Source: Adhaeribacter arboris (GTDB lineage: Bacteria > Bacteroidota > Bacteroidia > Cytophagales > Hymenobacteraceae). From it: a stretch of 64,000 nt of DNA. The notes beneath the pieces were generated by a model. The model had not been told where the DNA came from, ran no database searches, and saw only the letters and a program-made list of their open reading frames with translations. The DNA lies in assembly GCF_003023845.1 (NCBI RefSeq), contig NZ_PYFT01000001.1, positions 2,542,001 through 2,606,000 on the forward strand. The letters run 5' to 3'. Numbering within the stretch: position 1 is the stretch's first letter; the number at the start of each line of letters is the position of its first letter. Both the position numbers and the translations under genes were made by a program. Positions 7,648-53,739 of the stretch are shown piece after piece.

Positions 7648-7682
7648 GTCCTTTCTATAGGCTCAGCTGCATCGGAAATTTG
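7648..7682 (+). promoter_or_regulatory. Phage late promoter, copy 3 (portal and lysis operon)
   Basis: GTCCTTTC (7648-7655), 19 nt, GAAATTTG (7675-7682). The ATG at 7693 leaves a leader of only a few nt. The spacer begins TATAGG, as in the copies at 15321 and 17631. Confidence 0.75.
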
Positions 7683-9371: not shown

Positions 9372-9373
9372 CC

Positions 9374-10384: not shown

Positions 10385-10385
10385 T

Positions 10386-10802
10386 ATGTCTGCCAATCAA
10401 TCCACCCTAACTATTACCCGCGTCCTTCGCGAAGCCAAACAAACTTTGGGAACCATGACCGTTAAACTTGGCTCTCAGGTTATTTATAACTGTAAATCTT
10501 TAGAGCTGCCCTGGCGCAACAACAAGCCGAAAGTAAGCTGCATTCCGCCCGGTATCTACCAGGTGGTAAAACGCAACTCGCCCAAGTACGGCGACCACTT
10601 CCATATCCAGGACGTGCCCGGTCGGGATTATATTTTAATTCATCAGGGTAATTACCACACCGACATTCTGGGCTGCATTCTACCTGGCCAAGCCCATACC
10701 GATATTAACGGCGATGGACTACGCGATGTAACTAATAGCAAGAATACCTTGCGCATGCTGTTGAGCCTTTTTCCAGAAAGTTTCACGTTAACCATCGCAT
10801 AA
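10386..10802 (+). CDS. DUF5675 family protein, lysis-cassette member
   Basis: A 138-residue protein with the DUF5675 hallmarks SLELPWRNN, CIPPGIYQV and ILIHQGNYHTDILGCI. The conserved His and Cys (H-x-GN ... GC) recall L,D-transpeptidase-like active sites, so a role on peptidoglycan is plausible but unproven. It precedes the holin and spanin-like genes, so it may be the endolysin or an assistant of the lysis cassette. The start at 10386 lies 1 nt after the previous stop. Confidence 0.75.
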   Translation: MSANQSTLTITRVLREAKQTLGTMTVKLGSQVIYNCKSLELPWRNNKPKVSCIPPGIYQVVKRNSPKYGDHFHIQDVPGRDYILIHQGNYHTDILGCILPGQAHTDINGDGLRDVTNSKNTLRMLLSLFPESFTLTIA

Positions 10803-10807
10803 GGCTT

Positions 10808-11293
10808 ATGTACTTCCAAAACATTTTGTTACCGCAACTTTTGCCCATTCTTCTGGGCCTCATCAACCGGTATATTTTTTCTGACTGGAGTTTTATTGCT
10901 TTTCTGATGGTGGCTGTTTCGCTCGATACCGTAACGGGCATCTGGGTAGCTTATAAGTTTCGCAAGATCCACAGCATGCGTTTACGGAAGCAGTTTTGTG
11001 AAAAGGTGGCGCAGTACGGTGTGGGCTTAATTCTGGTGCACATTCTTTCTTCCCACCTGGTAGACGGCCAGCCTAATCAAGCTTTTAATACTTTAATGCC
11101 CTACTTCAAAGGTGTGATGTACATGGTTTTCCTGGGAGCCGAATGCATTAGCGTGGATGAAAACATGGGAAAACTGGGCTTGCCTTTTTTACCCAAGTGG
11201 TTTCGCCGGCGCATGCAGGAGTTTAACGAAACCGGAGTACTTCCCCCTCCCCCTACTAAAATTACTTCTGAAACTGAAAATCAATCCAATTAA
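10808..11293 (+). CDS. Phage holin family protein
   Basis: A 161-residue membrane protein with about four hydrophobic segments (LLPILLGLINRYIF, FIAFLMVAVSLDTVTGIWVAY, GVGLILVHILSS, GVMYMVFLGAECISV). The motif SLDTVTGIWVAYK and a late conserved acidic residue fit the phage_holin_4_1 family. It would form the membrane lesion that times lysis. The C-terminal tail is hydrophilic and Pro-rich. It sits between DUF5675 and the lipoprotein gene with 5-6 nt gaps, so the three are co-transcribed. Confidence 0.85.
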   Translation: MYFQNILLPQLLPILLGLINRYIFSDWSFIAFLMVAVSLDTVTGIWVAYKFRKIHSMRLRKQFCEKVAQYGVGLILVHILSSHLVDGQPNQAFNTLMPYFKGVMYMVFLGAECISVDENMGKLGLPFLPKWFRRRMQEFNETGVLPPPPTKITSETENQSN

Positions 11294-11299
11294 AAAATC

Positions 11300-11815
11300 A
11301 TGAAAAATTATTTATTTGTTCTGACTTTATTGTGTCTTGTAAGCTGCAAAACGTTGCAGCCGGAGCCGGCTGCTCCTACCCAGGCTCCTTCTGATCAGCC
11401 GGAGCTTATCACTCCTCAGAAAACTTTGGCTCAGCCGGCACCATCGGTTTACCAGCTGCCGGCTGGCTTAACGGGCCGGCAAAAACTAAAAGCTATTCAG
11501 GCCCTGGCCAAGCGCGACACACCCGTAGTGCCCCGAAAGATTAAAGTAAATCAGGATAACCGGGTTAAGGATAAAAGTAAAGTGGCCGTTGATCAGCGCG
11601 TGAAAGATAAAAGTAAAGTGAAGGATCAAAAGAAAAGCCTGAAGAAAGAAAAGCTACAACCAGCTCCTAAAGTTGATTCCACTCACCAAGGCAAAGCATG
11701 GGCAGTATTTTGGTTTACGCTTTTTCTCGTGGCTATTGTCCTACAACTTTATTGGAACCGAAAAAAGCTCTGGACCAGGCTGGTCAAATTAGTGACTAAA
11801 CGAAAAGCAAAGTAA
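11300..11815 (+). CDS. Lipoprotein with C-terminal membrane helix, candidate u-spanin
   Basis: A 171-residue protein. The N-terminal signal ends with the lipobox LVSC (Cys16), so it would be lipidated and sorted to the outer membrane. A Pro-rich part (17-55) is followed by a highly charged Lys-rich part (80-120), then a transmembrane helix at 133-152 (AWAVFWFTLFLVAIVLQLYW) and a basic cytoplasmic tail. An outer-membrane lipoprotein with a C-terminal inner-membrane anchor is the layout of unimolecular spanins (as in T1 gp11), which fuse the two membranes in the last step of lysis. Its place after the holin supports this. The call is inferred from topology, not from sequence similarity. Confidence 0.7.
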   Translation: MKNYLFVLTLLCLVSCKTLQPEPAAPTQAPSDQPELITPQKTLAQPAPSVYQLPAGLTGRQKLKAIQALAKRDTPVVPRKIKVNQDNRVKDKSKVAVDQRVKDKSKVKDQKKSLKKEKLQPAPKVDSTHQGKAWAVFWFTLFLVAIVLQLYWNRKKLWTRLVKLVTKRKAK

Positions 11816-11923
11816 ATTAAAGTAGCATTGATGAAATAAGGGTAGTTGTAACTTGCCCATCATTTGATATTTTAAAATATACTCTATAATCAGTTACTTA
11901 ATTACCATAAAGTTTGAAATTTA
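11816..11923. other. Non-coding gap at the edge of the cargo region
   Basis: AT-rich sequence with no convincing ORF. It separates the rightward lysis cassette from leftward cargo genes; no clear terminator is visible. Confidence 0.4.
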
Positions 11924-12124
11924 TTAAACATTAAGCGTAATACTATTATTTTCATCCAAGCCTTTAATCTTACTTAAAATTTCTTTTGGCGAGTTTTTGT
12001 TAAACGTGTACTTATTTTTTACAACTATTCCACCCTCATCGAATATCTCTTGATTGTAAAAATCCAACGACTCTAATTCACTTAAAGTAATGTTTAATGC
12101 TTTAGCGAGATTAGGATAATTCAT
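11924..12124 (-). CDS. Small hypothetical protein
   Basis: A 66-residue protein. Its start overlaps the stop of an upstream truncated ORF (ATGA), which suggests the two once formed a translationally coupled pair. The sequence (LAKALNITLSELESLDF) looks helical at the start. No family recognised; it may be an orphan partner after its upstream gene was cut. Confidence 0.5.
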   Translation of the reverse strand: MNYPNLAKALNITLSELESLDFYNQEIFDEGGIVVKNKYTFNKNSPKEILSKIKGLDENNSITLNV

Positions 12125-12276
12125 TTGCTTTTCTTTTTATATGTACCTCTTTTTTTCCCTTTGCATGGTTTTAAATAATTAGCTATAATGGCAAAATCTT
12201 CAATAGTAATAAATTTACTAATATCACCTCCAAACTTATTTTTGCAAAATTTGTAGGTAGGAGTAATCTTTTTTAA
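12121..12276 (-). pseudogene. 3' remnant of a small gene
   Basis: An open frame of 51 codons without a start codon. It ends in a basic tail (CKGKKRGTYKKKSK) and couples to the next gene by ATGA. It breaks off near 12276, just beside the end of the recombinase gene at 12298. The 5' part was probably lost when the recombinase segment arrived. Confidence 0.45.
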
Positions 12277-12297
12277 TTATTAGGAACGCCCGTGCTC

Positions 12298-12888
12298 CTA
12301 ACTGATTGGATGCTTTGCTTTCCACCTTATCACCGATTGGTGAGAAATTTCAAGTTTCTTGCCAATTGCCCGATCGGACAAACCTTCTTTTACTAATAGC
12401 GGAATTTGGTTTAACAATTCTGAAGATACTCCCGGCCGGCCAAGTTTGATTCCTTTTGCTGCCACTCGCTCCAATCCGGCTTTTACCCGCTCGGATTGCC
12501 GGAGCTTTTCTTGCTTAGCCAAGGTGGCCAGCAAGGAAATAATCATTTCTTTGAAAATGCCGGTACTGTCCAGATACTGCTCCGTGAAAGATTTAAATTG
12601 AACGCCATAGCTTTCCAGCTGCGCCAGGTAGAGAATAGTCTGGCTCACGCCTTCTCGGCTAAACCGGTCCAGACTCCAGAAAAACACTAGGTCAAATTTG
12701 CGCTGGTGCGCATCCGTAAACATTTGTTTGAATTCAGATCGATCCGAGCGGCCGCCGCTGACTTGTTCCTGGTACTCTTTGTAAATGGTGTGCCCCATGG
12801 CTTGCGTCCACCGGCGCAATTCTAATAATTGGTTTTCGGTTGTTTGATGCTGCTTGGTAGAAACCCGGGCGTAAATGGCTACTTTCAT
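12298..12888 (-). CDS. Serine site-specific recombinase (resolvase/invertase)
   Basis: A 196-residue protein starting at the Met of MKVAIYARVST, preferred over an upstream Met at 12933 because it lies directly before the conserved strand and has an AGGA ribosome site. Ser10 in YARVST is the nucleophile. The catalytic domain continues with FFWSLDRFSREG, and the C-terminus has a resolvase helix-turn-helix (GLSDRAIGKKLEISHQSVIRW). It would cut and rejoin DNA at a specific site. No pair of inverted sites with a swapped gene is visible, so it may be an in-trans resolvase or a passenger of the cargo region. Confidence 0.85.
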   Translation of the reverse strand: MKVAIYARVSTKQHQTTENQLLELRRWTQAMGHTIYKEYQEQVSGGRSDRSEFKQMFTDAHQRKFDLVFFWSLDRFSREGVSQTILYLAQLESYGVQFKSFTEQYLDSTGIFKEMIISLLATLAKQEKLRQSERVKAGLERVAAKGIKLGRPGVSSELLNQIPLLVKEGLSDRAIGKKLEISHQSVIRWKAKHPIS

Positions 12889-12996
12889 GGTCCTAAAACT
12901 ACTGTTTTTGGAGCAATTTTTAAACCCCTTCAATAGGCATTAAAAGGCCATTTTTTACCCTAAAAACCGGAGGGTTTTTGGACCACCCAAATTTAC

Positions 12997-13275
12997 CTAC
13001 AAACTACTCCCTGGATGCTGGTACTGGCGAAGCTGCATTAGGAAATTTCGTAAGAACTGCATCTGGTCAAATTCGTGTTCCCATTTATCCCGGCTCCCCG
13101 GATCGTAAATAAGGGCAGTGGCTTCCAGGTTAGCCAGGTAGTTAAGCAAGTAATTGCAATCGGGTACCTGGTCTAAGAACTCGACCAGGGCCGCCAGCGT
13201 GTTTTCGGTGAGGTGAGGCATACCCGCAATGGTGTAGATGGTTTGCCCGTTTTCTTCTTTCTTCGAGATGCCCAC
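12997..13275 (-). CDS. Hypothetical protein
   Basis: A 92-residue protein starting with GTG at 13275, 2 nt after the stop of its upstream neighbour, so the two form one small operon. The centre (LTENTLAALVEFLDQVPDCNYLLNYL) is helical. It lacks membrane segments and motifs I recognise. It is read against the phage direction, as expected for cargo or lysogeny genes. Confidence 0.6.
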   Translation of the reverse strand: MGISKKEENGQTIYTIAGMPHLTENTLAALVEFLDQVPDCNYLLNYLANLEATALIYDPGSRDKWEHEFDQMQFLRNFLMQLRQYQHPGSSL

Positions 13276-13277
13276 AG

Positions 13278-13544
13278 TTAGGTATTTTTAAATTCACTCA
13301 AGTTGGCAAATACGTCTTTTAATTGAAACAGGAAAGTCAAGGTGTTTTTCAGCTCCAGGCTGTCGGTTTCTTCGCTGTCAAAATTCAGGCTCACAAAGCG
13401 AATGGTAGCTTCCAGGTGTTCGGCTATTTCATCGGGGTTATCATGCCGTCTTTCGTGCAAGTACAGAAAGAAGGGCCGCATATTGATATGCCGGTGGCTG
13501 AAAGGGTTCAGTACTAGTTGCGGTGGGTTGCTTGGTTCGTTCAT
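13278..13544 (-). CDS. Hypothetical protein
   Basis: An 88-residue protein. I chose the Met of MNEPSNPPQL at 13544 because the longer frame (to 13625) begins with an unlikely His/Cys-rich stretch. It contains a basic motif (YLHERRHDNPDEIAEHLEATIRF) and an acidic helical C-terminus (EETDSLELKNTLTFLFQLKDVF). Operon partner of the gene at 12997-13275. Function unknown. Confidence 0.6.
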   Translation of the reverse strand: MNEPSNPPQLVLNPFSHRHINMRPFFLYLHERRHDNPDEIAEHLEATIRFVSLNFDSEETDSLELKNTLTFLFQLKDVFANLSEFKNT

Positions 13545-13712
13545 GGGCGGGGAGTGAGGAATGAGGTGATGCTTTTTACAATGAGCACCGGAATTTTCTG
13601 GCCGGGCCGCAAAATGCCGAAACAAACCGGCAGTAATATTTTTGGGTTTTGTGGCTTTAAAATCATATATTGGGGGGCTTTACTTAATGCTTGTCAAGTT
13701 ATTTGGTTAGTT

Positions 13713-13745
13713 AGCCCGGGGAGGTCGCAGCCCCCGGGCTATTTT
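13713..13745 (+). terminator. GC-rich hairpin, probable bidirectional terminator
   Basis: Stem AGCCCGGGG / CCCCGGGCT with a T run on the plus side. It touches the 3' end of the leftward antirepressor gene and separates it from the region around 13545-13712, which holds no ORF I can support. Confidence 0.65.
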
Positions 13746-14329
13746 TGTTTTACGGCAATGGCCAGCGCTGCCACCGGGGCCTCAGCCTCGCGCATAAAAT
13801 CGAAGGTCATTTGGCGGTTGTTGGCCAGCCACTGCTCAAAGGTGAGGCTTTTAAGGCTGTTGAGCCGGTTGGTTTCCTGGCGCACAATGTGCTGGGCATT
13901 GCGGAACGTGGAGCGTACCTCGTTTACCCGGTCTATTTGCTCCTGGGTGGCTTTTTGCTTTTGCTCCAGGAAGGTGGTGTGATCGGCGAAGTTCTGGTAG
14001 AGGATTTCGTAACAGAGCAGTTTGTACTTCTTGACCGATTCCTGCGCCTCTACCCGCACGTTCTTGGGGTTAATGGTAAACAGCCAACCAAAGACAAATT
14101 TTAAAGGCAAACAGAACATTTCCCGCTCCTTTCCATCAGCTCCAACTGTATAGCTAAGCTGTATAGTTGAAGCTAGAATTTCGTCATTTTTTATCTTTTC
14201 GATTTGACCTTGAGGCAATATTCCTAAAGCTTCACAGATGGGTTTAATAGGAACGAGCTTTTGACCGTTTTCAATAACGATAATATCCACGTCATTAATT
14301 TTTGCAATTGTTTTAGGTAGTGCTTCCAT
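13739..14329 (-). CDS. Phage antirepressor N-terminal (P22_AR_N-like) protein
   Basis: A 196-residue protein. Residues about 1-115 match the P22 antirepressor N-terminal/BRO layout: short strands, VPIKPICEALGI, then a Trp-rich segment (LPLKFVFGWLFTINP). The C-terminal half is a helical coiled-coil-like region. Such proteins bind DNA or a repressor and help switch a prophage to lytic growth. Its promoter region is shared with a divergent small gene and is full of AT-rich palindromes. Confidence 0.8.
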   Translation of the reverse strand: MEALPKTIAKINDVDIIVIENGQKLVPIKPICEALGILPQGQIEKIKNDEILASTIQLSYTVGADGKEREMFCLPLKFVFGWLFTINPKNVRVEAQESVKKYKLLCYEILYQNFADHTTFLEQKQKATQEQIDRVNEVRSTFRNAQHIVRQETNRLNSLKSLTFEQWLANNRQMTFDFMREAEAPVAALAIAVKQK

Positions 14330-14331
14330 AT

Positions 14332-14442
14332 TATAATTATTTATATTTAGTTATAAACTATCACAAATGTATATTATTTATAATTAATTATAAAGAGTTA
14401 TAGAAAATATTTTTTTATAACTAATAATTATTAATTTTGAGC
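14332..14442. promoter_or_regulatory. Divergent promoter/operator region
   Basis: Very AT-rich. It contains an 18-bp perfect palindrome TTTATAATTAATTATAAA (14377-14394) and several copies of GTTATA or its complement nearby (AGTTATAAAC before it, GTTATA at about 14398 and TATAAC at about 14415). These look like operators for a DNA-binding protein, perhaps the product of the small gene at 14443. Confidence 0.5.
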
Positions 14443-14619
14443 ATGAAAAAGCTACAAATTCAAATATCTGACGAAGCTCACTCGGAACTCCTTAAATTAC
14501 AGTTATTAAGAAAAGTTAATAGAGAACCTAGAACTACTATTGTTGAAATAGCCAGTGATGTTTTGGAAGGATGTCTGCTAGGAGATGAGCAAGATAAAAA
14601 CGAAAACCCCGGCAAATAG
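14443..14619 (+). CDS. Small ribbon-helix-helix-like protein
   Basis: A 58-residue protein. The start is the ATG at 14443 rather than a TTG six bases earlier. The short opening strand (KKLQIQISDEAHSELLKL) followed by helices fits an Arc/MetJ-type ribbon-helix-helix DNA-binding fold. It lies divergent to the antirepressor gene across a palindrome-rich region. A repressor role there is an inference. Confidence 0.55.
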   Translation: MKKLQIQISDEAHSELLKLQLLRKVNREPRTTIVEIASDVLEGCLLGDEQDKNENPGK

Positions 14620-14704
14620 CCAGGGTTTAGTAAATTTTAGCTTGCAAAGTAATGAAATTATTAATGGTAGAACTTATTACAAATGCGTTAGAAGTGGTAA
14701 ACCA

Positions 14705-15088
14705 TCATAAAAACTGAGACACCTTCTCGATAGTTAGCGGCTTTTCAATACAATCAATTCCGGGATATTTCTTGGACCTGGCAATATCCAAATAGTGCGT
14801 AGAGCTACTAACTAAAACAATCTTAATATCCGCTTTGCTTAAATCTGCCGATGTTTGCAGGGCTTCTAAAAACTCGAAGCCATCCATTACGGGCATATTA
14901 ATATCCAGTAAAATTAACTCGGGGCATTGCTCTTGCTCACAAACCCGTTTGACTATTTCCAAGGCTGCTAATCCATGTTCGGCGGTTAGAACTTCTACTT
15001 CTATTTCGGCGCGTTTAAGAGTTCTTTGCGATAAGAAAATAGCAGTTGCATCATCATCTACTAGTAATATTTTTTTGGGAGTGGACAT
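14705..15088 (-). CDS. Single-domain response regulator (CheY-like)
   Basis: A 127-residue receiver domain. The start is the Met of MSTPKK, preferred over the Met four codons upstream. Acidic residues are Asp11-13 (VDDD), the phosphoacceptor is Asp62 in LLDINMP, Ser94 stands in VLVSSS, and Lys116 in EKPL. There is no output domain, so it would act by protein contacts. A PAS-histidine kinase gene lies 1.4 kb away in the same cargo region (16495-17583) and could be its partner, though the two are not in one operon. Confidence 0.88.
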   Translation of the reverse strand: MSTPKKILLVDDDATAIFLSQRTLKRAEIEVEVLTAEHGLAALEIVKRVCEQEQCPELILLDINMPVMDGFEFLEALQTSADLSKADIKIVLVSSSTHYLDIARSKKYPGIDCIEKPLTIEKVSQFL

Positions 15089-15100
15089 AAATAAAATCAT

Positions 15101-15291
15101 TGAACCATCCTACATTTTAAGCAATGGTATCACAAGGTACCTCGATTAAAATTAGGATAACGAATTATGTATCATTTAACACGTATTTATGCGGATGAAC
15201 ACGTGTTAATATGGAAAGTTTTTATTTAAACTAACTGTAGATACTTAGTAGTTTAGTAACCTTTGGTGTTTTTTAGAACTAGCTACTGGAT
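15101..15291. promoter_or_regulatory. Upstream region of the response regulator
   Basis: It holds an inverted repeat around 15177-15208 (TTAACACG ... ACACGTGTTAA) and AT-rich flanks. It is probably the promoter and operator area of the leftward regulator gene. No ORF is supported here. Confidence 0.35.
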
Positions 15292-15320
15292 AAGCCAAGG
15301 CCTAGGTCAAGGCTTTTTTT
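15292..15320 (+). terminator. Terminator-like hairpin before promoter copy 4
   Basis: AAGCC ... GGCTT stem with a partly paired middle (GGCC/GGTC) and a seven-T run directly touching GTCCTTTC. Confidence 0.6.
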
Positions 15321-15355
15321 GTCCTTTCTATAGGTCAGCTGCCTGCTGAACTTCG
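15321..15355 (+). promoter_or_regulatory. Phage late promoter, copy 4 (with gene relic A)
   Basis: GTCCTTTC (15321-15328), 19 nt, GAACTTCG (15348-15355). The spacer TATAGGTCAGCTGCC.. is close to copies 5-7. It precedes a truncated copy of the tail gene start. Confidence 0.7.
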
Positions 15356-15374
15356 CCTAGTAAACTCCCCTACT

Positions 15375-15470
15375 ATGCACGTAGTCGAATTAAAATACGG
15401 TAAAAAGCACTTACAAAAGCAAACACTCCTGCCTTTAAGCTTTCCAAAATACGAGCTTAATCAATTTTAA
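15375..15470 (+). pseudogene. Relic A: truncated 5' copy of the tail gene at 18410
   Basis: A 31-codon ORF starting MHVVELKYGKKHLQKQ, clearly related to MHLVELKYNKKRIEKQ of the intact gene at 18410. Similarity ends after about 18 codons. The upstream DNA (promoter plus TCCCxTACT before ATG) matches too. Its tail overlaps the end of the leftward gene at 15457. It is a duplicated gene start, not a functional gene. Confidence 0.75.
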
Positions 15471-15828
15471 AATCATCTAAATTATCAATCTGGCGCTTTC
15501 TTAATAGTTGCCGTTGTTCATCAATTTGCTTGAGCAACTCAGTTTTCCTTTTAATTGGGGTATTAGGATCGTGCAGTTCGGTTTGCAGTTCTTTTATCCA
15601 TTCTTTTATTAATTTACAGGCTCGCCAATGTCCTAATTCGCGGTACAACCATTTAATAAAGAAAGCTAAACCATAACCGGTAGGTGGAGAAAGAGATACG
15701 GCAATTTGCCGGGTATGCGCATCTTTTATAAGATTGGCTAGAGTAGCCAGTACGGTAGAAAGGCCAACGGCCAGCGTAACATTTCCTCCATTTAACGGAT
15801 GTTTGCTGCCCGGTATTATTTCCCCCAT
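15457..15828 (-). CDS. Small membrane-associated protein with coiled coil, unknown
   Basis: A 123-residue protein. A moderately hydrophobic segment at about 17-33 (VTLAVGLSTVLATLANL) and another near 48-62 (TGYGLAFFIKWLYRELG) may contact the membrane. The C-terminal 55 residues are charged and helical (KELQTELHDPN...EQRQLLRKRQIDNLDDF). Its ATG overlaps the stop of the upstream gene by one base, so the pair is coupled. Cargo gene between relics A and B. Family not recognised. Confidence 0.6.
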   Translation of the reverse strand: MGEIIPGSKHPLNGGNVTLAVGLSTVLATLANLIKDAHTRQIAVSLSPPTGYGLAFFIKWLYRELGHWRACKLIKEWIKELQTELHDPNTPIKRKTELLKQIDEQRQLLRKRQIDNLDDFKID

Positions 15829-16025
15829 TAACGAATCAGATCCTGTAATTGCTTACTTACCTTTTCATCGTAGTGGCGGGTAATAGTAACAGATTTGCCG
15901 GTAACTTTATGGGTTAAAGTAATCTTATCCGAAAATAACGAAGTAGCCATCCGAACAATCGGAACCAGGCTAACAATACTAGCTATTACCAGTATAAGAC
16001 TACTCCATATATTTAAAGACTCCAT
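15828..16025 (-). CDS. Small membrane protein, partner of the gene at 15457
   Basis: A 65-residue protein with one N-terminal membrane helix (IWSSLILVIASIVSLVPIV) and a short soluble part (DKITLTHKVTGKSVTITRHYDEKVSKQLQDLI) that looks like two strands and a helix. It is coupled by TAATG to the next gene. I do not recognise the family. A two-protein membrane module carried as phage cargo is compatible with superinfection exclusion or defence, which is only a guess from context. Confidence 0.6.
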   Translation of the reverse strand: MESLNIWSSLILVIASIVSLVPIVRMATSLFSDKITLTHKVTGKSVTITRHYDEKVSKQLQDLIR

Positions 16026-16237
16026 ATTACCTCCTCTATATTTATTTTTTTCATTATATTATATTTAAATATAATACAAATTACGATATTTAGGTAAGCT
16101 TTGGTATAAAAATTTTACAAATATTTTCACTTTTATTTATTTTTACTCAAAATGTTCATATCCCTTTCTAAAAGGAATCCAAGTCGATCATCCTTTTATA
16201 ATTAAATGCTCGATTTTATTTATTAAGTAGATTTTAT
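16026..16237. other. AT-rich intergenic region
   Basis: Probably contains the leftward promoter of the membrane-protein pair. No ORF or RNA is supported. Confidence 0.35.
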
Positions 16238-16272
16238 GTCATTTCGGCACTATTAAAGCTGCTAGAACTTTG
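16238..16272 (+). promoter_or_regulatory. Phage late promoter, copy 5 (with gene relic B)
   Basis: GTCATTTC (16238-16245, one change from the consensus), 19 nt, GAACTTTG (16265-16272). Confidence 0.65.
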
Positions 16273-16291
16273 CACAGTAATCTCCCTTACT

Positions 16292-16363
16292 ATGCACTTA
16301 GCAGAATTAAAATACAATAAGAAGCATTTTAAAAAGCAGGTTCCTGAACTGCGTGTAACATAG
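16292..16363 (+). pseudogene. Relic B: truncated 5' copy of the tail gene at 18410
   Basis: A 23-codon ORF, MHLAELKYNKKHFKKQVPEL..., the closest of the three relics to the intact start MHLVELKYNKKRIEKQVP. The preceding GTAATCTCCCTTACT is identical to that of the intact copy. Homology stops after about 18 codons and the kinase cassette follows. Confidence 0.75.
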
Positions 16364-16494
16364 GCGATTTCTCCCTTACTTAAAGAAAGTTGTTTTTAAT
16401 GGAATAGGGTTATTGTCGTTTGAACTTTAAGACTAACTTACTAGTTATTATAAAGTACAGGGCGGCCTAAGGGATAACAGCGTTTCTGCTGTAT

Positions 16495-17583
16495 ATGGCT
16501 CTAACTGATTGGGGGGCACCTTTTTCCTCGCCCCTAACGGAATCATCTCATTCGGTTGCTTTTGCTTTCGATATTGCCACTAACCATTTTACTTATCTTA
16601 ATCCAGCTTTTGAAACTGTTTGGCTTAAAACTCGGAAAAGTACGCAAGACAACCCAGCTTCGTTGCTCAATACTATCCATCCAGATGATAGAATTCACGT
16701 TTTTCAAGCTTATGAAGAACTGTTGGCAGGTACTTTACTGCTGGATATGGAATTTCGGATTATATTGAGGAGCCACACCCAACGATGGATCAGCGTCCGG
16801 CCTAAACTATTAACGGAACAATTAGTCATAGTTGGTTTTGCGGACGATATATCCGCTCAAAAGCAACACAAAGAAACGCTCCAAAAATTTGCCGATAAAA
16901 AGAACTCCATTCTCAATATTTTATCCCATGACTTGGCTGGTCCATTTGCCAATATTCAGAGCTTGGCTACCATATTAGCGCAATATACTGTAGGTATTGA
17001 AAATGAAGAAATCCGTGGTATAATTAATATTATTCAGCAAAGCAGTAAACAAGGTATGGATCTCATTCAAGAATTCATTAGACAAGAATTTTTGGAATCA
17101 GCCGCAGCTGCTTTAGTTATGGTACGGGTAAACCTAATAGAGAAGCTGCAAATTGTAATGGATGAGTATCTGCCTACGTCTAGAATAACCGGCATAACTT
17201 TTCATTTTATAACTTCTACCGATAAAGTTTTCCTAACCCTGGATATGCCTAAATTCTTCCAGGTAATTAATAATTTAGTTTCTAATGCGATAAAATTTAC
17301 GCCGGATGGGGGTAATATTACTATTTCGGTGGAAGAACAAGAAGATTCTGTTTTAATTAAAGTGGCAGATACCGGAATTGGTATTCCGGCAAAATACCAT
17401 GCTACACTATTTGATAAGTTTACCAATGCCCGACGACCTGGCATTAAAGGGGAACCTTCGGTTGGTTTGGGTATGTCTATCATTAAAACAATTGTAGAGT
17501 GGCACCAAGGTAAAATTTGGTTTGAGAGCCAAGAAAATAAAGGCACTACCTTTTTTATTCAGGTGCCAAAAAGTATAAATTAA
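16495..17583 (+). CDS. PAS-domain sensor histidine kinase
   Basis: A 362-residue soluble kinase without membrane helices. The PAS domain covers about 18-125 (PAC part with DMEFRIILRSHTQRWISV). The dimerisation/phosphoacceptor motif is LSHDLAGPF (His145). The ATPase motifs are NNLVSNAIKFT (N box), DTGIGIP (G1) and SVGLGMSIIK (G2). It would autophosphorylate and pass phosphate to a receiver such as the CheY-like protein encoded at 14705. It is the only forward cargo gene between relics B and C, and a terminator closes it. A cytosolic sensor kinase is unusual phage cargo. Confidence 0.9.
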   Translation: MALTDWGAPFSSPLTESSHSVAFAFDIATNHFTYLNPAFETVWLKTRKSTQDNPASLLNTIHPDDRIHVFQAYEELLAGTLLLDMEFRIILRSHTQRWISVRPKLLTEQLVIVGFADDISAQKQHKETLQKFADKKNSILNILSHDLAGPFANIQSLATILAQYTVGIENEEIRGIINIIQQSSKQGMDLIQEFIRQEFLESAAAALVMVRVNLIEKLQIVMDEYLPTSRITGITFHFITSTDKVFLTLDMPKFFQVINNLVSNAIKFTPDGGNITISVEEQEDSVLIKVADTGIGIPAKYHATLFDKFTNARRPGIKGEPSVGLGMSIIKTIVEWHQGKIWFESQENKGTTFFIQVPKSIN

Positions 17584-17601
17584 TATTACCTCATTTTAGA
17601 T

Positions 17602-17628
17602 AGCCCAAGCATATAGCTGGGCTTTTTT
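17602..17628 (+). terminator. Terminator of the kinase cassette
   Basis: Stem AGCCCA / TGGGCT followed by TTTTT. It abuts promoter copy 6. Confidence 0.8.
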
Positions 17629-17630
17629 AT

Positions 17631-17665
17631 GTCCTTTCTATAGGTTAGTGCCTTGCTGAACTTCG
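17631..17665 (+). promoter_or_regulatory. Phage late promoter, copy 6 (with gene relic C)
   Basis: GTCCTTTC (17631-17638), 19 nt, GAACTTCG (17658-17665). It shares the TTCG variant with copy 4. Confidence 0.7.
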
Positions 17666-17684
17666 TATAGTAATCTCCCTTACT

Positions 17685-17768
17685 ATGCACCTTGAAGAAT
17701 TAAAACACGGTAAAAAGCACTTAAAAATGCATTATGCTTTAATAATAGCATCAAGGAATTGCTATTAA
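17685..17768 (+). pseudogene. Relic C: truncated 5' copy of the tail gene at 18410
   Basis: A 27-codon ORF, MHLEELKHGKKHLKMH..., preceded by GTAATCTCCCTTACT as in the intact copy. Its end overlaps the end of the leftward gene at 17751. Homology to the tail gene ends after about 14 codons. Confidence 0.75.
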
Positions 17769-18251
17769 CTTGATAGAAACAATCTGTCTTATCCAACGGG
17801 CATGCCTCTTTTCACCAGGCACTATTACTTGAAAAGGCCCATCCTTCTGGTCTAATGGTTTCCCATCTGCCTGAAAAGCTAAAATAATGGTTTTATCGGT
17901 GAAAAGCGGATCCAATTCAGCCAAGGCATAAATTACTTTGTACTTATCAGCGGCGGTAACTAACACATAAGAGGTGATAGTATTTTTCTTACCTGGTTCC
18001 CCTACTCCTGCTCCCGCCATGTTTAATATATCCGTCAATAAAACTCCCGTGTAGGTGTGCTGCTTCTCATCATGGCCCTTTACGTCCACAGTTATTGATT
18101 TCATAGCCATAAGGTCTTTTTCTGAAAGGGAAAGGGTTTTTAAACCTTCACCACTAATTTGCAAGGAGGCGGTAGGAATAGCTGTTTGGGCATAAGTTGT
18201 AGGCGTGGTTACCTGAAATAATAACAACAGCAAGCCAAATAAATATTTCAT
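17751..18251 (-). CDS. Secreted molybdopterin-dependent oxidoreductase-fold protein
   Basis: A 166-residue protein with a signal peptide (YLFGLLLLLFQVTTPTTYAQ). The rest looks like the SUOX/oxidoreductase molybdopterin-binding fold in its short, cofactor-less form: LSEKDLMAMKSITV, TYTGVLLTDILNMAG, GPFQVIVPGEKRHARWIRQI. In full enzymes this fold holds the molybdenum cofactor. Here the usual cofactor Cys is not seen, so it may only bind a ligand in the periplasm. Cargo between relic C and the intact tail gene. Confidence 0.75.
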   Translation of the reverse strand: MKYLFGLLLLLFQVTTPTTYAQTAIPTASLQISGEGLKTLSLSEKDLMAMKSITVDVKGHDEKQHTYTGVLLTDILNMAGAGVGEPGKKNTITSYVLVTAADKYKVIYALAELDPLFTDKTIILAFQADGKPLDQKDGPFQVIVPGEKRHARWIRQIVSIKLIAIP

Positions 18252-18301
18252 ATAAATTTTATTTAAGAATAAAGAAGTCCTAAGATATAGAACTTAATCC
18301 T

Positions 18302-18333
18302 TTTATAAAGGCATTATCAGGGGCTTTATAAAA
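18302..18333. other. AT-rich hairpin before promoter copy 7
   Basis: TTTATAAAG ... CTTTATAAA inverted repeat without a T run on the plus side. It may be a weak terminator or operator. Confidence 0.35.
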
Positions 18334-18355
18334 ATAAAATACACCATGCATTTAT

Positions 18356-18390
18356 GTCCTTTCGATAGGTTCGTTGCCTGCTGAACTTTG
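18356..18390 (+). promoter_or_regulatory. Phage late promoter, copy 7 (tail operon)
   Basis: GTCCTTTC (18356-18363), 19 nt, GAACTTTG (18383-18390), then a leader of about 13-19 nt to the ATG at 18410. This is the copy that drives the intact tail operon. Confidence 0.75.
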
Positions 18391-18409
18391 CATAGTAATC
18401 TCCCTTACT

Positions 18410-19225
18410 ATGCACTTAGTAGAATTAAAATACAACAAAAAGCGTATTGAAAAGCAGGTTCCAGCTTCCTGGAACGAGCTCTCGGGCAAACAACTGGTTC
18501 GGGTTATTGCTGCGTTGCTGACCATCCGGGATAAGCACACCTTGCAGTTAACCCTGATCCAGATCCTGCTGCAAGTAAAATCTTCCTTTCTGAATCTATG
18601 CACGGTCGAGCAGAAGATCTACTTGGCACAGCTTACCCAATTTATTACCAAAGGCGGATTACTCACAAAGCAATTATTGCCGGTTATTTCCTTGGGAAAA
18701 TGGCGCAGGCAAAAGTATTATGGTCCTGCCTCCAGCTTTCGCAACCTGCTTTTCCTGGAATTTATTTTTTCGGATACTTATTTCATCGCCTGGTCCAAAA
18801 AACAGAACGAAGAGTTACTGAATAAATTTATTGCCTGCCTGTACCGGGAGCGTACCTGGTTTCACTTCATCAAAAAACGATTTTCTAGTTATAATGGCGA
18901 TAATCGCCGGGCCTTTAACTCGCACCTGGTAGAAGTCCGAGCCCATAAACTGGCTCAGCTACCTCTGGAAGTAAAGCAATCCATCGTTCTCTGGTACCGC
19001 GGTTGCCGCGAAGAGCTGGAGAAAGATTACCCTCGGGTTTTTTCCGGCGATAACCAGCAAGCGGCCGAGCGCACCGGCTGGGACGGCGTGCTGCGGAATA
19101 TGGCCGGCAGCGTGCACCAGTTGGAAGCTACCGGACAGGCCTCGGCTCGCAACGTGTTTGCCCTCATGGAAGATCGCCTGTACTACGCCGAACTCGCCGA
19201 AAGAAAAAACAAACAAGCCTCATGA
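18410..19225 (+). CDS. Phage tail-operon protein, unknown; recipient of 5' duplications
   Basis: A 271-residue protein, first gene of the tail operon. I set the start at MHLVELKY (18410), not at an upstream in-frame codon, because all three relics keep exactly this ATG and because the upstream codon lies inside the promoter. The protein is mostly helical and basic in the middle (SLGKWRRQKYYGPASSF). It overlaps the next gene by 4 nt (ATGA). In place it corresponds to tail-assembly or minor tail genes, but I recognise no family. Confidence 0.75.
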   Translation: MHLVELKYNKKRIEKQVPASWNELSGKQLVRVIAALLTIRDKHTLQLTLIQILLQVKSSFLNLCTVEQKIYLAQLTQFITKGGLLTKQLLPVISLGKWRRQKYYGPASSFRNLLFLEFIFSDTYFIAWSKKQNEELLNKFIACLYRERTWFHFIKKRFSSYNGDNRRAFNSHLVEVRAHKLAQLPLEVKQSIVLWYRGCREELEKDYPRVFSGDNQQAAERTGWDGVLRNMAGSVHQLEATGQASARNVFALMEDRLYYAELAERKNKQAS

Positions 19226-19755
19226 GATTAAAAGAATATACCGCCCTGTTCCGGGAGCTGGCCCGCCGCCACGTGGCCATTCAGCACTCTCCTACGGAGT
19301 GCCGCTTCCTGCGAGTAACGCTCAGCACGGATCCCATCGCCCGGCGTTTGGATTTGGAAGAGTTATACAACAGCCTGCGCACGAAGCTCAAGGCTGGTTA
19401 CTTCCTAGTGCTGCAAACCTACGAAACCGACTACGAAGATAATGTATCGGACAACTTAAAAAAGGAATTCCATGGCGCCATAATGGTCATGGGTAAAGTT
19501 AAAACCGGCGATTTTGACCAGTTGGAAGAAGTACTCGATCGCACCGAAGAAATCGGCGAGGAGCTGATGGGCACGGTGCTCCACACTTTCCGGACTGATT
19601 TTACTCCTCCCGTGAAATTTATGACGGCTAAAGACATTACCGCCGAGAAGATCGGCCCGGTGGGTGATAACCATTACGGCACCCGCTTTAACTTCTCTTT
19701 CCAGGAAACAGCTAACGCTGCTTTGAAACACAAACCCGATAAATATTTAAATTAA
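19222..19755 (+). CDS. Phage tail-operon protein, unknown
   Basis: A 177-residue protein. The N-terminal part (LFRELARRHVAIQHSPTECRFLRV) is helical/strand, with an acidic middle (VKTGDFDQLEEVLDRTEEIGEEL). Coupled by ATGA upstream and TAATG downstream. No family recognised. The size and position suit a tail completion or neck component. Confidence 0.7.
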   Translation: MRLKEYTALFRELARRHVAIQHSPTECRFLRVTLSTDPIARRLDLEELYNSLRTKLKAGYFLVLQTYETDYEDNVSDNLKKEFHGAIMVMGKVKTGDFDQLEEVLDRTEEIGEELMGTVLHTFRTDFTPPVKFMTAKDITAEKIGPVGDNHYGTRFNFSFQETANAALKHKPDKYLN

Positions 19756-21779
19756 TGGCTTCCGTTGCTTCCATAAATTTTAGCTTTCGCCACAATAGTA
19801 TTGGCCTGGGCAACTACTTTGAGTTGCGCTTATTTGGCAACCTGGTGCGGTTCACCTCCGCCTCTACTACCAATGCGGCTAATCGGGAATTTGGTATTTC
19901 TTCCGGAGCCGGAGCCGCTGCCAATGCTTTACTGCAGTTAATTCAAGATTACATTGCGGCGAATGGTGCCGGGCAATACACCGCTGAATTTACCCGCATT
20001 GGCGAGGGCCCCAGCCAGGAAAATCCGGATGACTACTTTGTTTACCTTTTTGTGGTGCAAGCCACCCAGTTGGGGTCGGCTTTTAACTTCACGGGCAGTA
20101 CGGCTTCCGGACCTGACTGGCTGATTGGCTACAGCGATTCGACAGCAGACACCTTATCGGCCACCTATACTTCTTCCTTGGCCACGTGCTTCGCCTCCAG
20201 TACTGGTTCTATCCTGGTAACCGTTACGGGAGGTGAAGGCCCCTTCACTTATCTCTGGTCCGATGGCGCTACCACCAAAGATCGCTCCCTGGTACCGGCC
20301 GGCACCTACCAGCTGGTGATTACCGATAGTTCCGGGCAAAGCTTTTCTTTTTCGGCGGAGGTAGGCCAGAATTCCCGCATCGAAGTGCAGGTGACCAAGG
20401 GCGATGCTTCTATCGCTTTAACGGTATCGGGAGGAGTAGCGCCTTACACCTATTTATGGGAAGACGGCAGCACGGCAGCTACCCGGGAAAACATCAGCCC
20501 GGGAAATTATTCCTGCACCGTCACGGACTCAATTGGCTGCCAGCTAGTGGTGCCCATTAATTTTGGGCAAGAGCAGTTTTTTTACTCCCGCAACCCGGTG
20601 ACCCTGGAGTTGCAGGCCTTGGATCCATTGACGAAGCCGAACCTGACTTTCCTCTGCGAAGTGTGGCTGGAGAAAGAATACCTATCCGGTACTTTCGAGA
20701 AAATCACCGCTGAGCCATTGGAGCAGCCCGCTGATACGGACGGAAAAACCATTTTTAACGTGCGCCGGCTCCTGGATGTTTACCTGGAACCGCACTTTCC
20801 TACTTTTGGCCAGGCCGAAATTAGCCGGGCCGATAGCTGTTTTAAACGCTTTTATTTAAAGCACACCGAAAAGTACGGCAACCCGCCCGTACCTTCTTCC
20901 TTTTCCCAGGTGGATTACCGCTACGTGGTCATTGGCGGGCTGGATTTACCCGAATACTACGCGCAAACATTCTTTACCAGTTACCTGGTAAAGCGGAAGC
21001 CTTTTTTCACCTGGGATCTACCGGTAAAATCCGTGTTTAGTGACCAGCCGGAGTACTTGTATTTTATGCCCTTGAGCCTGACGACCACTAGTTTTACCGT
21101 CCGGGTAAAGGTCTATTACCAAAACAGTAATCCGCAAACCTACGATTTATTTACGCAGCAAGACGTCAATCGCTTTGAGTTGTACTGCGTGCCGGCTGGC
21201 CACGATCTGCTGGCGCTGCCAGCGAAGAAACCCGGCAGTCCGATTGAGAGTTGGGATATTTTTGTGCAGGATCAGGCTGGCACCATCATTTCGGAAACCC
21301 GGCGCTTTGTGCTCGATACGCGTTACTTCCGGCGCAAGCGTTATTTGTTGTACGCCAACAGCGTGGGCGGTATTAATACCCTGGCAGCTCTAGGGGAAAC
21401 GAAAAGTAAACTGGATCCGGAGATTCAGCAGCTCGAGCGCATCATCACGCCCGACTACAATCCGGAGCGGGGCGAAGTAGCCATTACCGATAAATACCTC
21501 AAACCAAGTTTAGAATTAACCACCGGCAACCGGTCGCGGCAGGAAATTGCCAGCCTCACCGATTTTGTGCTCACCCGCGAAGCTCGCCTGGTAGGAGCCG
21601 ACCGCTACCTGGCCGGCACCTTCGCCGCCAAAAACGTGGTGCTGGATGATGAAAGTGAAGAGGTAAGCTACATTGATTTTGAATTCGTGCTGCCGAAAAT
21701 GTACAACTACACGCCGGCTCTACGTCTGGCCGGCTACCTGGATGAGGCTTCCACTACTGAACCCCGCGCTCCATGGTAG
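19755..21779 (+). CDS. Large tail protein with SprB-like beta repeats
   Basis: A 674-residue protein. Residues about 145-200 and 207-270 are two copies of a SprB-type Ig-like repeat: ...TVTGGEGPFTYLWSDGAT..LVPAGTYQLVITDSSG and ...TVSGGVAPYTYLWEDGST..ISPGNYSCTVTDSIG. SprB is the T9SS-secreted gliding adhesin of Bacteroidota, so these domains may bind the host surface or shape the virion. The C-terminal 400 residues look like a structural domain without known motif. It overlaps the next gene by 7 nt. Role as a receptor-binding or baseplate-associated protein is an inference. Confidence 0.7.
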   Translation: MASVASINFSFRHNSIGLGNYFELRLFGNLVRFTSASTTNAANREFGISSGAGAAANALLQLIQDYIAANGAGQYTAEFTRIGEGPSQENPDDYFVYLFVVQATQLGSAFNFTGSTASGPDWLIGYSDSTADTLSATYTSSLATCFASSTGSILVTVTGGEGPFTYLWSDGATTKDRSLVPAGTYQLVITDSSGQSFSFSAEVGQNSRIEVQVTKGDASIALTVSGGVAPYTYLWEDGSTAATRENISPGNYSCTVTDSIGCQLVVPINFGQEQFFYSRNPVTLELQALDPLTKPNLTFLCEVWLEKEYLSGTFEKITAEPLEQPADTDGKTIFNVRRLLDVYLEPHFPTFGQAEISRADSCFKRFYLKHTEKYGNPPVPSSFSQVDYRYVVIGGLDLPEYYAQTFFTSYLVKRKPFFTWDLPVKSVFSDQPEYLYFMPLSLTTTSFTVRVKVYYQNSNPQTYDLFTQQDVNRFELYCVPAGHDLLALPAKKPGSPIESWDIFVQDQAGTIISETRRFVLDTRYFRRKRYLLYANSVGGINTLAALGETKSKLDPEIQQLERIITPDYNPERGEVAITDKYLKPSLELTTGNRSRQEIASLTDFVLTREARLVGADRYLAGTFAAKNVVLDDESEEVSYIDFEFVLPKMYNYTPALRLAGYLDEASTTEPRAPW

Positions 21780-23212
21780 GCTATCGCATCAATAATACCT
21801 GGCTGGATTTACCTCCGGACTTGAGCGTGCAGATGGAAATCTATAATCCCCTGTTTCAAACGGATTATATTCCCGGCTCGCTTACGTACCCGTTTAATCT
21901 GCCGGCCGACAGCAAACTCAACCAGCGGGAGCTGAACTTCCCGGGAGAGCTGGCCGTGAGCCGCTACAGTACGCGCTTTTTTACGGCGCAAATGTTTCTC
22001 ATGGACCAGCTCTGGCGCGTGGGCAAACTCAACGTGCTCCGGAAAACGAAGGACTACAACGTTAATTTTCAAACCGATATTGGCGACATCGAAAGCCGCC
22101 TGAAGGAAGATTCTTTGCGGAGCCTGGACCTGGGCACGGCTAATCTTTCGATGCAAGTGGCGGAAATTTACCCCACGCAAACCTACGCGCTGTTTCCGGT
22201 TAAAAACCCGAATTTTTTTGATGGTAAAAAAGAAACTTTCGGCAAGTACCTCAACTACTACGACGGAGGATTCTTTGAATCCTCCGGCATTCATACCATT
22301 ACGCCTTTTCCCTACCTGGTGCACGTGCTGCGCCAGGTGCTGGCGAACTACGGCTACCAGGTGCAAGGAGCCTGGCTCGAAGAAGAAGCTACTCGCCGCC
22401 TGGTAATCTACAATAACCAGGTACCCACCGATGCCCCATTCCCGATTAACCAGCACGTGCCGGATATGAAGGTCAACGAGTTTCTCCGGGCCATTCGCTC
22501 GCTCTTAGGTTTGGGGTTTATTTTCAATACGACTGCCAAAAGCATGACCATTGTGCGGCTAAAGGATGTGCTCCGCAATACGGCCTACGTGGACTGGACC
22601 ACCCGCACGAAGCCTTCTTTTGAATGGGAGCCCAACTTAACCAATGGTTTTAACCTGAAGCAGGAACCGGACGGCAACGACGATATTTATAAAACGCTGC
22701 CAGCTACTTGGGGCACTTACAGAGTAGGAGCCGGCAAGGAAGATATTCCGGTTTCTGCCGGCACTTTGCCTACGGTTAATCAAGCGGACGAACTCAAAAG
22801 TTCCCGGCAGTGGCTCGTGCCCCAGGCGAGCCAGAAAGGAAGCACGCCGGAGCTGGAGATTGGCCAGAATCCTTTCTCGCTGCGCCTGCTTTCTTACCAA
22901 GGCATGCAGCCTGATTCTCAAGGGAATCTCTATCCCCAAGGCAGCAACGCGCCGGTAGTTTGGGAAGGTGGCCAAGGTTTATACCAAACCGCTCATCAGG
23001 AATGGCTGGAGTTTCGAAGTACTACCGAGCTGATTGAAGCCAAAATTACCTTCACGATCGAAGATCTGCTCCGGCTTAAACCGGATTTAAAAGCCATGAT
23101 CCGCTACGAAGACGGGACCATTAAAGCGCTATGGGAAAAAATAACCCTCGGCATCAACAATAAAACCGGTATCCAGGAGGCGAAAGTGTCGCTTTTCAAA
23201 GTGCCCTACTAA
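21773..23212 (+). CDS. Phage tail/baseplate-like protein
   Basis: A 479-residue protein with a beta-rich N-terminal part (RINNTWLDLPPDLSVQMEIYNPLF). A central segment (NEFLRAIRSLLGLGFIFNTTAKSMTIVRLKD) is typical of hub or distal-tail proteins that combine a mixed domain with a strand-rich core. It starts inside the end of the previous gene (ATGG at 21773). The family was not verified. The order SprB-repeat protein, this gene, small gene, tape measure is atypical compared with lambda-like phages, where the tape measure comes first. Confidence 0.65.
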   Translation: MVGYRINNTWLDLPPDLSVQMEIYNPLFQTDYIPGSLTYPFNLPADSKLNQRELNFPGELAVSRYSTRFFTAQMFLMDQLWRVGKLNVLRKTKDYNVNFQTDIGDIESRLKEDSLRSLDLGTANLSMQVAEIYPTQTYALFPVKNPNFFDGKKETFGKYLNYYDGGFFESSGIHTITPFPYLVHVLRQVLANYGYQVQGAWLEEEATRRLVIYNNQVPTDAPFPINQHVPDMKVNEFLRAIRSLLGLGFIFNTTAKSMTIVRLKDVLRNTAYVDWTTRTKPSFEWEPNLTNGFNLKQEPDGNDDIYKTLPATWGTYRVGAGKEDIPVSAGTLPTVNQADELKSSRQWLVPQASQKGSTPELEIGQNPFSLRLLSYQGMQPDSQGNLYPQGSNAPVVWEGGQGLYQTAHQEWLEFRSTTELIEAKITFTIEDLLRLKPDLKAMIRYEDGTIKALWEKITLGINNKTGIQEAKVSLFKVPY

Positions 23213-23214
23213 CC

Positions 23215-23242
23215 TGGACACATCTTGGACACATCTTGGACA
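23215..23242. repeat. Short tandem repeat before a tail gene
   Basis: TGGACACATCT occurs twice in full (23215-23225, 23226-23236), followed by TGGACA. It lies just before the ATG at 23246 and occupies the ribosome-binding region. Confidence 0.8.
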
Positions 23243-23245
23243 AAT

Positions 23246-23677
23246 ATGAATAACCAAAAAGAAACGGCCGAACAATGGCTGATCTACGCCATTGAAAACT
23301 GGAAAGGTGAGCTTACCCGGCTAAGAGCGCGGGATACGGACGCTCTGTTTTCCAGCTTTAAGGGCAACGTGATTGACCAGGCTGATAGTCGGCTAAAAAT
23401 TGAGATTGCCTACGCCTGGTACGGTCAGATGATCGATATGGGGGTGGGCCGCGGTACGCGCTCCGGCGAGCAGAAAGCGCAAGCCACGGAGCGTCGGCTG
23501 ATAGGTAAGTTTACGGGCAACCGGCGCCAGGCCAAGAAATGGTATTCCGGCCGCAACCGCAATGGCATCGGCTACCAGGTAACGCGCCTGGGCATGCTCA
23601 TGGAAGAAATAATGGTGACAGCCGGCATCGAGAAAATCAAAGGCAGCATCGATCAAAAACTTGTAATTACTTTTTAA
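23246..23677 (+). CDS. Phage tail-operon protein, unknown
   Basis: A 143-residue protein. I use the ATG at 23246, because an upstream TTG start lies inside a tandem repeat. It has an N-terminal helical part (AEQWLIYAIENWKGELTRLRARD) and a basic middle (GKFTGNRRQAKKWYSGRNRNG). It ends directly against the tape-measure ATG. It could be a gpG-like morphogenesis or tail-completion protein. Not recognised. Confidence 0.7.
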   Translation: MNNQKETAEQWLIYAIENWKGELTRLRARDTDALFSSFKGNVIDQADSRLKIEIAYAWYGQMIDMGVGRGTRSGEQKAQATERRLIGKFTGNRRQAKKWYSGRNRNGIGYQVTRLGMLMEEIMVTAGIEKIKGSIDQKLVITF

Positions 23678-26998: not shown

Positions 26999-27004
26999 TT
27001 TTTT

Positions 27005-27039
27005 GTCCTTTCTGGCCGCGTGGTTCCGGAGGAATTTTA
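27005..27039 (+). promoter_or_regulatory. Phage late promoter, copy 8 (polysaccharide lyase)
   Basis: GTCCTTTC (27005-27012), 19 nt, GAATTTTA (27032-27039, the weakest -7 of the set). It begins 7 nt after the tape-measure stop without a clear terminator. Confidence 0.65.
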
Positions 27040-27077
27040 CATCCTCAAACAAATCCACAAACAATTATTCCAATCCC

Positions 27078-30064: not shown

Positions 30065-30097
30065 AAAAGGCCTCAAACAACGTGTTTAAGGCCTTTT
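30065..30097. terminator. Bidirectional terminator between integrase and tRNA
   Basis: AAAAGGCCT-C-AAACA / TGTTT-A-AGGCCTTTT, a long stem with a 3-nt loop. It terminates the leftward tRNA transcript. The prophage junction probably lies near here. Confidence 0.85.
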
Positions 30098-30103
30098 CTA
30101 TAG

Positions 30104-53729: not shown

Positions 53730-53739
53730 TAGCTTCTAC

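Follow-up and report, generated by a model that had tools for sequence, protein, structure and literature searches.

Broken copies of a gene start among the accessory genes of an Adhaeribacter arboris prophage: possible scars of recombination between related phages

How does a prophage come to carry three broken starts of one of its own genes between unrelated accessory genes, with an intact start only at the end of the series? The question is raised by a stretch of 64,000 nucleotides (hereafter the window; C1:2542001-2606000) of the 7.25-Mb genome of Adhaeribacter arboris, in which the head maturation protease, portal and integrase of a prophage were assigned by family, and its lysis, tail and tape-measure genes were named by position and by eye. 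The accessory region at 11.8-18.4 kb belongs to a temperate tailed phage of Bacteroidota and is read as an accessory (moron) locus upstream of the tail operon. The repeated element comprises the promoter and first codons of the gene at 18410, here called a tail gene because it precedes a long gene read as the tape measure. As argued below, the broken copies may be scars of repeated crossovers between related phages.

Four copies of one gene start

The four copies (c1 to c4), the cargo between them and the intact gene are arranged as follows (bp, base pairs; ORF, open reading frame).

15315-15422, plus strand: c1, late promoter with GTCCTTT at 15321 and TTCG after 24 bases; degraded leader hairpin; ATG at 15375; first 15 codons; terminator-like stem before it
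15457-16025, minus strand: cargo 1, ORFs of 123 (15457-15828) and 65 (15828-16025) amino acids
16232-16344, plus strand: c2, decayed promoter GTCATTT with the 24-base spacing kept and TTTG; hairpin with one mismatch; ATG at 16292; first 18 codons
16495-17583, plus strand: cargo 2, PAS-HisKA-HATPase histidine kinase, followed by a terminator-like stem
17625-17731, plus strand: c3, intact late promoter with GTCCTTT at 17631; hairpin stem kept; ATG at 17685; first 15 codons; terminator-like stem before it
17751-18251, minus strand: cargo 3, protein of 166 amino acids with an Oxidored_molyb domain (PF00174) and, by eye, a signal-peptide-like N-terminus
18350-18456, plus strand: c4, intact promoter; perfect 10-bp hairpin TGCATAGTAA-TCTCCC-TTACTATGCA that includes the start codon; start of the gene
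18410-19225, plus strand: intact gene of 271 amino acids, first of the operon read as the tail operon

The repeated piece is about 107 bp long, and the intact gene (18410-19225) is joined to c4 only. With up to three mismatches, the 21-mer GTAATCTCCCTTACTATGCAC occurs four times in the window (0 in 100 shuffles) and, in the whole genome, at the same four places only. An earlier account made from the letters of the window (the sequence-only reading) had placed four copies here, and its description of them was borne out: the promoter boxes begin at 15321, 16238, 17631 and 18356, all four copies open with MH(L/V)xELKxxKK, three of the four share GTAATCTCCCTTACT before the gene start (c2, c3 and c4; c1 has two mismatches in the 21-mer), the cargo between them is unrelated (the ORF pair, the histidine kinase and the molybdopterin-binding-domain protein), and the intact copy stands only at the end of the array.

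Homology between the copies runs from about -60 to about +45 in c1 and c3, or about +54 in c2, and the alignment of all four is gap-free from -60 to about +43, where c3 possibly has one extra base. Beyond these limits the flanks are at shuffle level for every pair except c4 and the sister prophage (L031, in genome G007); two flank pairs of c2 and c4 are weakly raised (upstream 10/200 shuffles, downstream 16/200). The promoter of c2 is far more diverged than the others, with 13-15 of 26 positions identical to the other copies. An A-rich run (AAAAGCA, AAAATGCA) closes both c1 and c3 and could have been a source of microhomology. The predicted structure of the 18410 product (mean predicted local distance difference test score, pLDDT, 91.7) begins with strands at residues 2-8 and 11-17, and on this model the broken copies would encode about one N-terminal beta-hairpin and then stop. 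A transfer RNA (tRNA) or other Rfam-type element was rejected for the repeated piece, as no Rfam match at gathering thresholds was found at 9000-24000.

The putative late promoter and its leader hairpin

Our comparison was based on 77 distinct loci of gene 18410; before removal of duplicates there were 88, of which 46 came from genomes and 41 from viruses, the last being the window. The genome search gave 59 places outside the window, 57 of which were retrieved; the set was drawn up without 25 genome_contigs loci (L167-L191) that come largely from the same genomes, without 11 from a distant subfamily (L070, L078-L087) and without four weak viral ones (L163-L166).

In 47 loci, GTCCTTT was followed exactly 24 bases on by TTYG in 122 of 136 plus-strand occurrences and in none of the 25 on the minus strand, and NTCCTTT-N24-TTYR stood within 160 bases before the homologue of gene 18410 in 59 of the 77 loci. 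Eleven matches to the exact pattern were found in the whole host genome, six of them within the prophage and all of these on the plus, that is the coding, strand; a reversed control pattern gave 17 and 23 matches. By its position and form, the phage-specific motif GTCCTTT-N24-TTYG is a putative promoter that would act late, and it appears to mark late operons and some accessory genes across phages of the Hymenobacter/Pontibacter type. The promoter consensus of Bacteroidota is TAnnTTTG at -7, and the phage motif resembles such a promoter in which the -33 element has been replaced. No description of it was found in the literature searched for mechanism and promoter, largely not in full text. Three further late promoters lie in the left part of the prophage.

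606-640, plus strand: late promoter with a leader hairpin of its own, before the head-protease gene (661)
4161-4195, plus strand: late promoter before gene 4200
7648-7682, plus strand: late promoter upstream of the portal gene (8025)

A terminator-like stem stands directly upstream of 52 of 58 tail promoters and, among the copies, of c1 and c3 only, by a loose criterion that was satisfied by 127 of 164 promoters overall and by 282 of 492 shuffled sequences.

Since most start codons (116 of the 161 boxes for which one was found) lie only 3-8 bases past the box, these late messenger RNAs would be leaderless or nearly so. In 30 distinct leaders of 14-26 bases (c1 to c3 excluded, relatedness ignored), the first bases pair with the region of the start codon in stems of 5.57 bp on average (range 2-10), compared with 4.50 bp after swapping of arms, and a mean as high as this was reached in none of 20000 arm-swap permutations; across all 121 leaders, the mean hairpin z-score was 0.05. 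The leader GTAATCTCCCTTACT is part of such a hairpin, with 10 pairs in c4 and with mismatches in c1 and c2. Longer leaders (e.g., 639-665 and 18389-18414 in the window) tend to form a hairpin round the start codon, with arms that differ between phages while their complementarity stays.

At 26999-27860, directly after the long gene read as the tape measure, a further GTCCTTT box, followed after 24 bases by TTTTA, precedes a gene. Its protein of 260 amino acids is signal-peptide-like by eye and has no NCBIfam match; the place may be a second accessory site.

How the copies relate to one another

Over 105 aligned positions, c1, c3 and c4 are identical to the sister prophage at 88, 91 and 91 of them, respectively, so that c1 and c3 differ from it, free of gaps, at 17 and 14 sites; between the copies, c1 and c4 share 85, c3 and c4 84, c2 and c4 82, and c1 and c3 88. 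On this alignment c1 and c3 appear nearer to the sister phage than to c4. Six informative sites join c1 with c3 and c2 with c4, one joins c1 with c4 and none c1 with c2, and resampling of sites favoured the first grouping in 4824 of 5000 trials. At the 14 sites where c4 differs from the sister prophage, c3 is sister-like at nine and c4-like at two, c1 at seven and four, and c2 at two and six.

In genes shared with the sister prophage, fourfold degenerate sites are only 34-61% identical. Neutral change since the split from this phage would have taken a copy much farther than the divergence of c1 and c3; because these differ so little from it, they were probably constrained until late. They either still function or, up to a recent join, were the real tail-gene starts of another lineage.

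The same locus in relatives

Between the tail gene and the last left-arm gene that the loci share lie 0.87 to 9.5 kb in 43 loci, and the window, with 8.0 kb, has the second longest such stretch; in the 11 loci of the distant subfamily it measures 0.46-1.0 kb (54 loci if these are counted). The sister prophage carries a single copy of the unit and other accessory genes. An additional late promoter stands 0.5-1.0 kb upstream in five of 76 other loci (L048, L062, L064, L071, L142), and in L040, L124 and L153 the sole late promoter nearby is that of an accessory ORF. Tad2-like (PF11195) genes were found behind a late promoter in L062 (E 1.6e-15) and L048 (E 5.2e-14). These genes, related to Thoeris anti-defence 2, lie at 11895-12248 and 11294-11926, respectively, just upstream of the tail operon and each with its own late promoter; in L048 a second domain follows, and by eye the same domain occurs alone in L040 and L153, neither of which has a Pfam match.

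Accessory units behind a late promoter recur among relatives; broken starts do not. We scored the promoters upstream of tail genes that bear a promoter themselves, within 6 kb of them (n=34; the pattern requires an intact box, so decayed copies such as c2 would be missed). None resembled the tail-gene start in the way that c1 and c3 do: these score 68 and 69, and the best of the 34 reached 20 (L060, L126 and L067, with z of 3.4, 3.0 and 2.6 before any correction for the number of tests). By eye, the extra promoter of L062 had looked like a tail-gene start with a lost ATG; this candidate was dropped (z 1.7, 21/200 shuffles). Self-comparison of 40 other loci by BLAST gave only copies of promoter or terminator regions, reaching at most a few codons past the ATG, or matches of 13-19 bases. 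When 204 genomes of the family were searched at the DNA level, the unit came up only in the window, at one place in G007 and, over 20 bases, in G165; the 21-mer had no exact match in IMG/VR, nor did the 3.2-kb region of the array match anything in plasmid or phage collections.

Because broken starts were found in this window only, the proposal of the sequence-only reading that the gene start acts as a landing site does not generalize. Its view that several events took place held up better: divergence is unequal among the copies, the cargo units are unlike one another, and the sister prophage carries one copy. For the first two of these reasons a single old event was discarded, and none of the loci compared showed all four copies together with the same cargo. 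That copies might merely precede unrelated genes, without tail-gene codons, is not so in the window, where the codons are present, and is true of the extra promoters of relatives.

Origin of the broken copies

Recombination among related phages, which the sequence-only reading had named as the alternative to a repeated insertion, fits better, because a nested series derived from the phage's own start is not the pattern that the copies appear to form. We give about an even chance to the explanation, which has moderate support, that the broken copies are scars of repeated unequal, illegitimate crossovers between related phages. Two related phages, for instance a prophage and a superinfecting phage, would meet; one parent would be cut just inside its tail gene, and in the other the cut would fall at the far end of an accessory gene of that parent. 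The join would leave the promoter and start of the first parent behind as a scar and would import the accessory gene, promoter and whole tail gene of the second. Only joins that restore an intact tail gene would survive, so the intact copy would always be the last, and since each join would put the start of one parent beside the cargo and start of the other, an alternating pattern of copies would arise. Once two copies flank a cargo unit, ordinary recombination could add or remove units. Beside what is seen directly (the copies and their limits, the promoter motif, the single-copy sister and the variable locus), the crossover itself, the order of events and an origin of c1 and c3 in another lineage are reconstructions. 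It is a doubtful further step to regard the unit as a recombination joint, a one-way cargo ratchet in which parents alternate and dated scars record the lineages met and their order.

Several points weigh against crossovers between phages. The three breakpoints fall within about 10 bp (codons 15-18), which random joins leave unexplained, and no donor phage with a c1-, c2- or c3-type start and these cargos was found in the 204 genomes, IMG/VR or the plasmid and phage collections. The data amount to only 105 bp, with ultrafast bootstrap (UFBoot) values of 60-80, and nested orders are disfavoured, not rejected, by the approximately unbiased (AU) test (p ~0.06; p 0.08 for the order joining c1 and c4). 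No step in divergence from the sister prophage was seen across the locus at fourfold sites (identity 0.34-0.61 on the left and 0.43-0.53 on the right, near saturation), and correlations of protein distances across the locus were no lower than within the arms (Spearman 0.67-0.76; 41 loci). The guanine-plus-cytosine content of the cargo genes (0.38-0.41, compared with 0.46-0.51 in structural genes) is weak evidence for such crossovers, because the phage's own integrase is also low (0.39); the host flank has 0.43. Finally, the low divergence of c1 and c3 could also mean continued function.

An unlikely alternative is duplication in situ, in which cargo would have been inserted repeatedly near codon 16 of the phage's own tail gene, the piece of about 107 bp being duplicated each time, by slippage or amplification during replication in one variant, and no second phage would be needed. 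The similar limits of all three copies, the c4-like state of c2 at 6 of the 14 diagnostic sites, the lack of a visible donor and the survival of nested orders in the test above all suit it. However, c1 and c3 lack most of the states specific to c4, pair together and form no nested series, and we are aware of no mechanism for a target duplication of 107 bp ending at a promoter.

It is rather improbable that the copies are kept because they work, recombination having merely supplied them. On this account c2 would drive the kinase, and c1 and c3, which point into the 3' ends of cargo 1 and cargo 3 because two of the three cargo units lie on the minus strand, would fire late as an antisense shut-off of cargo expressed in the lysogen, or would serve as insulators. 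The boxes and 24-base spacing of c1 and c3 are indeed intact, c2 keeps the spacing, and some accessory genes of relatives, two of them Tad2-like, stand behind a late promoter. In the copies, states unlike those of both functional starts are rarer at hairpin sites than elsewhere (5/78 vs 41/237; Fisher p 0.017), but the same bias exists between the two functional starts (1/26 vs 13/79) and may therefore be inherited. Moreover, the box of c2 is damaged, the hairpins of c1 and c2 are mismatched, and none of the other 34 scored upstream promoters keeps tail codons. Expression of the cargo in the lysogen is putative, as the DNA upstream of the cargo genes showed no TAnnTTTG box of the host type, only a single TATCTTAG before cargo 3.

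Site-specific cassettes, with the 26-bp dyad as the site at which a serine recombinase (12298-12933) would integrate and excise circles of cargo, are very improbable: four dyads in direct order, their standing as the best-kept part of the copies and a gene of the DNA-invertase family in the same locus speak for them, but leaders of other phages (30 distinct, stems of 2-10 bp) have dyads of different sequence with their own complementarity, no tblastx match (E<=1e-6) to the recombinase gene was found in the loci searched for it, including the sister locus with the same dyad, no copy of the 21-mer lies at the recombinase gene, and serine recombinases of this family normally invert DNA.

12298-12933, minus strand: serine recombinase of the DNA-invertase family, in the same accessory locus; no evidence of action on the copies

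Relation to known systems

Mobile regulatory PeSL cassettes of T4-like phages were reportedly described by Arbiol in 2010 and by Comeau in 2014. In such cassettes a repeated promoter with a stem-loop lies among the accessory genes of a variable region and is proposed to mediate their shuffling by recombination (passages in PMC4503421, PMC3950731). The window likewise shows a promoter joined to a stem-loop repeated between the accessory genes of a variable region. As far as those passages go, it differs in that the promoter precedes late operons in a prophage of Bacteroidota, that the repeat includes the first codons of one gene of a structural operon, and that the array of several copies was observed in a single prophage. 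A high density of cassettes in many relatives was not seen: an extra promoter within 1.1 kb was present in 5 of 76 loci, three more had one before an accessory ORF instead, and none of the loci scored had an array of start copies.

The Tad2-like units of relatives fit the description of phage morons in passages of PMC3029335. The cargo of the window is absent from the sister locus and a terminator-like stem follows the kinase, but promoters of their own were not found for the minus-strand units, and the moron passages of that paper mention no truncated start of the downstream gene before each unit, as seen here. In Cluster K mycobacteriophages, start-associated and extended start-associated sequences of 13 and 17 bp are common to many genes, and about half have an imperfect inverted repeat just upstream (passages in PMC3203893). 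The likeness lies in a motif repeated at gene starts; here, unlike in those passages, the promoter boxes alone are common, each leader having a hairpin sequence largely its own. On the crossover reading, the array is a variant of the shuffling of phage morons and promoter cassettes, not a new kind of system.

As a concrete case, it indicates that the stepwise build-up of accessory genes in a temperate phage may be readable from scars. A motif with a near-invariant 24-base spacing is now defined for phages of Hymenobacter, Pontibacter and relatives and, because two of the accessory genes it marks are Tad2-like, it may be used to seek anti-defence cargo in this group.

Cargo, tail gene and other features of the window

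No close relative of the 123-amino-acid ORF, the kinase or cargo 3 was found in the family genomes searched (19 only for the kinase). The ORF pair of cargo 1 had no family match above cut-off; matches to its 123-amino-acid member occur in 6 of the 204 genomes, its own included, and the best relative, 39% identical and from the same genus, adjoins opposite-strand genes that are tail-like by eye. Kinase relatives in the genus are 54-57% identical, and matches to cargo 3 occur in 27 of 203 other genomes, the best-scoring at 43%. A response regulator lies upstream of the array.

14705-15100, minus strand: response regulator, upstream of c1; its 39% relatives adjoin kinase relatives on two other contigs of the genus

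On those contigs, of 66 and 106 kb (L113, L114), the relatives of the kinase and the response regulator are convergent neighbours; in the window the two genes (16495-17583 and 14705-15100) are divergent and split by c1, cargo 1 and c2.

Gene 18410 has matches in 45 of the 204 genomes (own included) and at 45 IMG/VR loci. At E<=0.001, a fold search with its product returned no relative of solved structure and 36 viral models, uncharacterised or nameless; weak lower-ranked matches (E 0.1-0.8) were labelled tail assembly chaperones. A search of PDB sequences with the profile of the family was negative at E<=1.

The sister prophage in G007 adjoins the same host ABC-transporter gene as the window prophage (window 29748-32000 and L121). 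Since this neighbour is shared, and the sole tRNA of the window (tRNA-Pro) lies at 30103, the two prophages may have a common attachment site. Farther right, at 45644-63705, lie four very large tandem genes (1057-1583 amino acids) with similar 'DGGYLLGGSS' repeats throughout, which by eye probably encode secreted repeat proteins.

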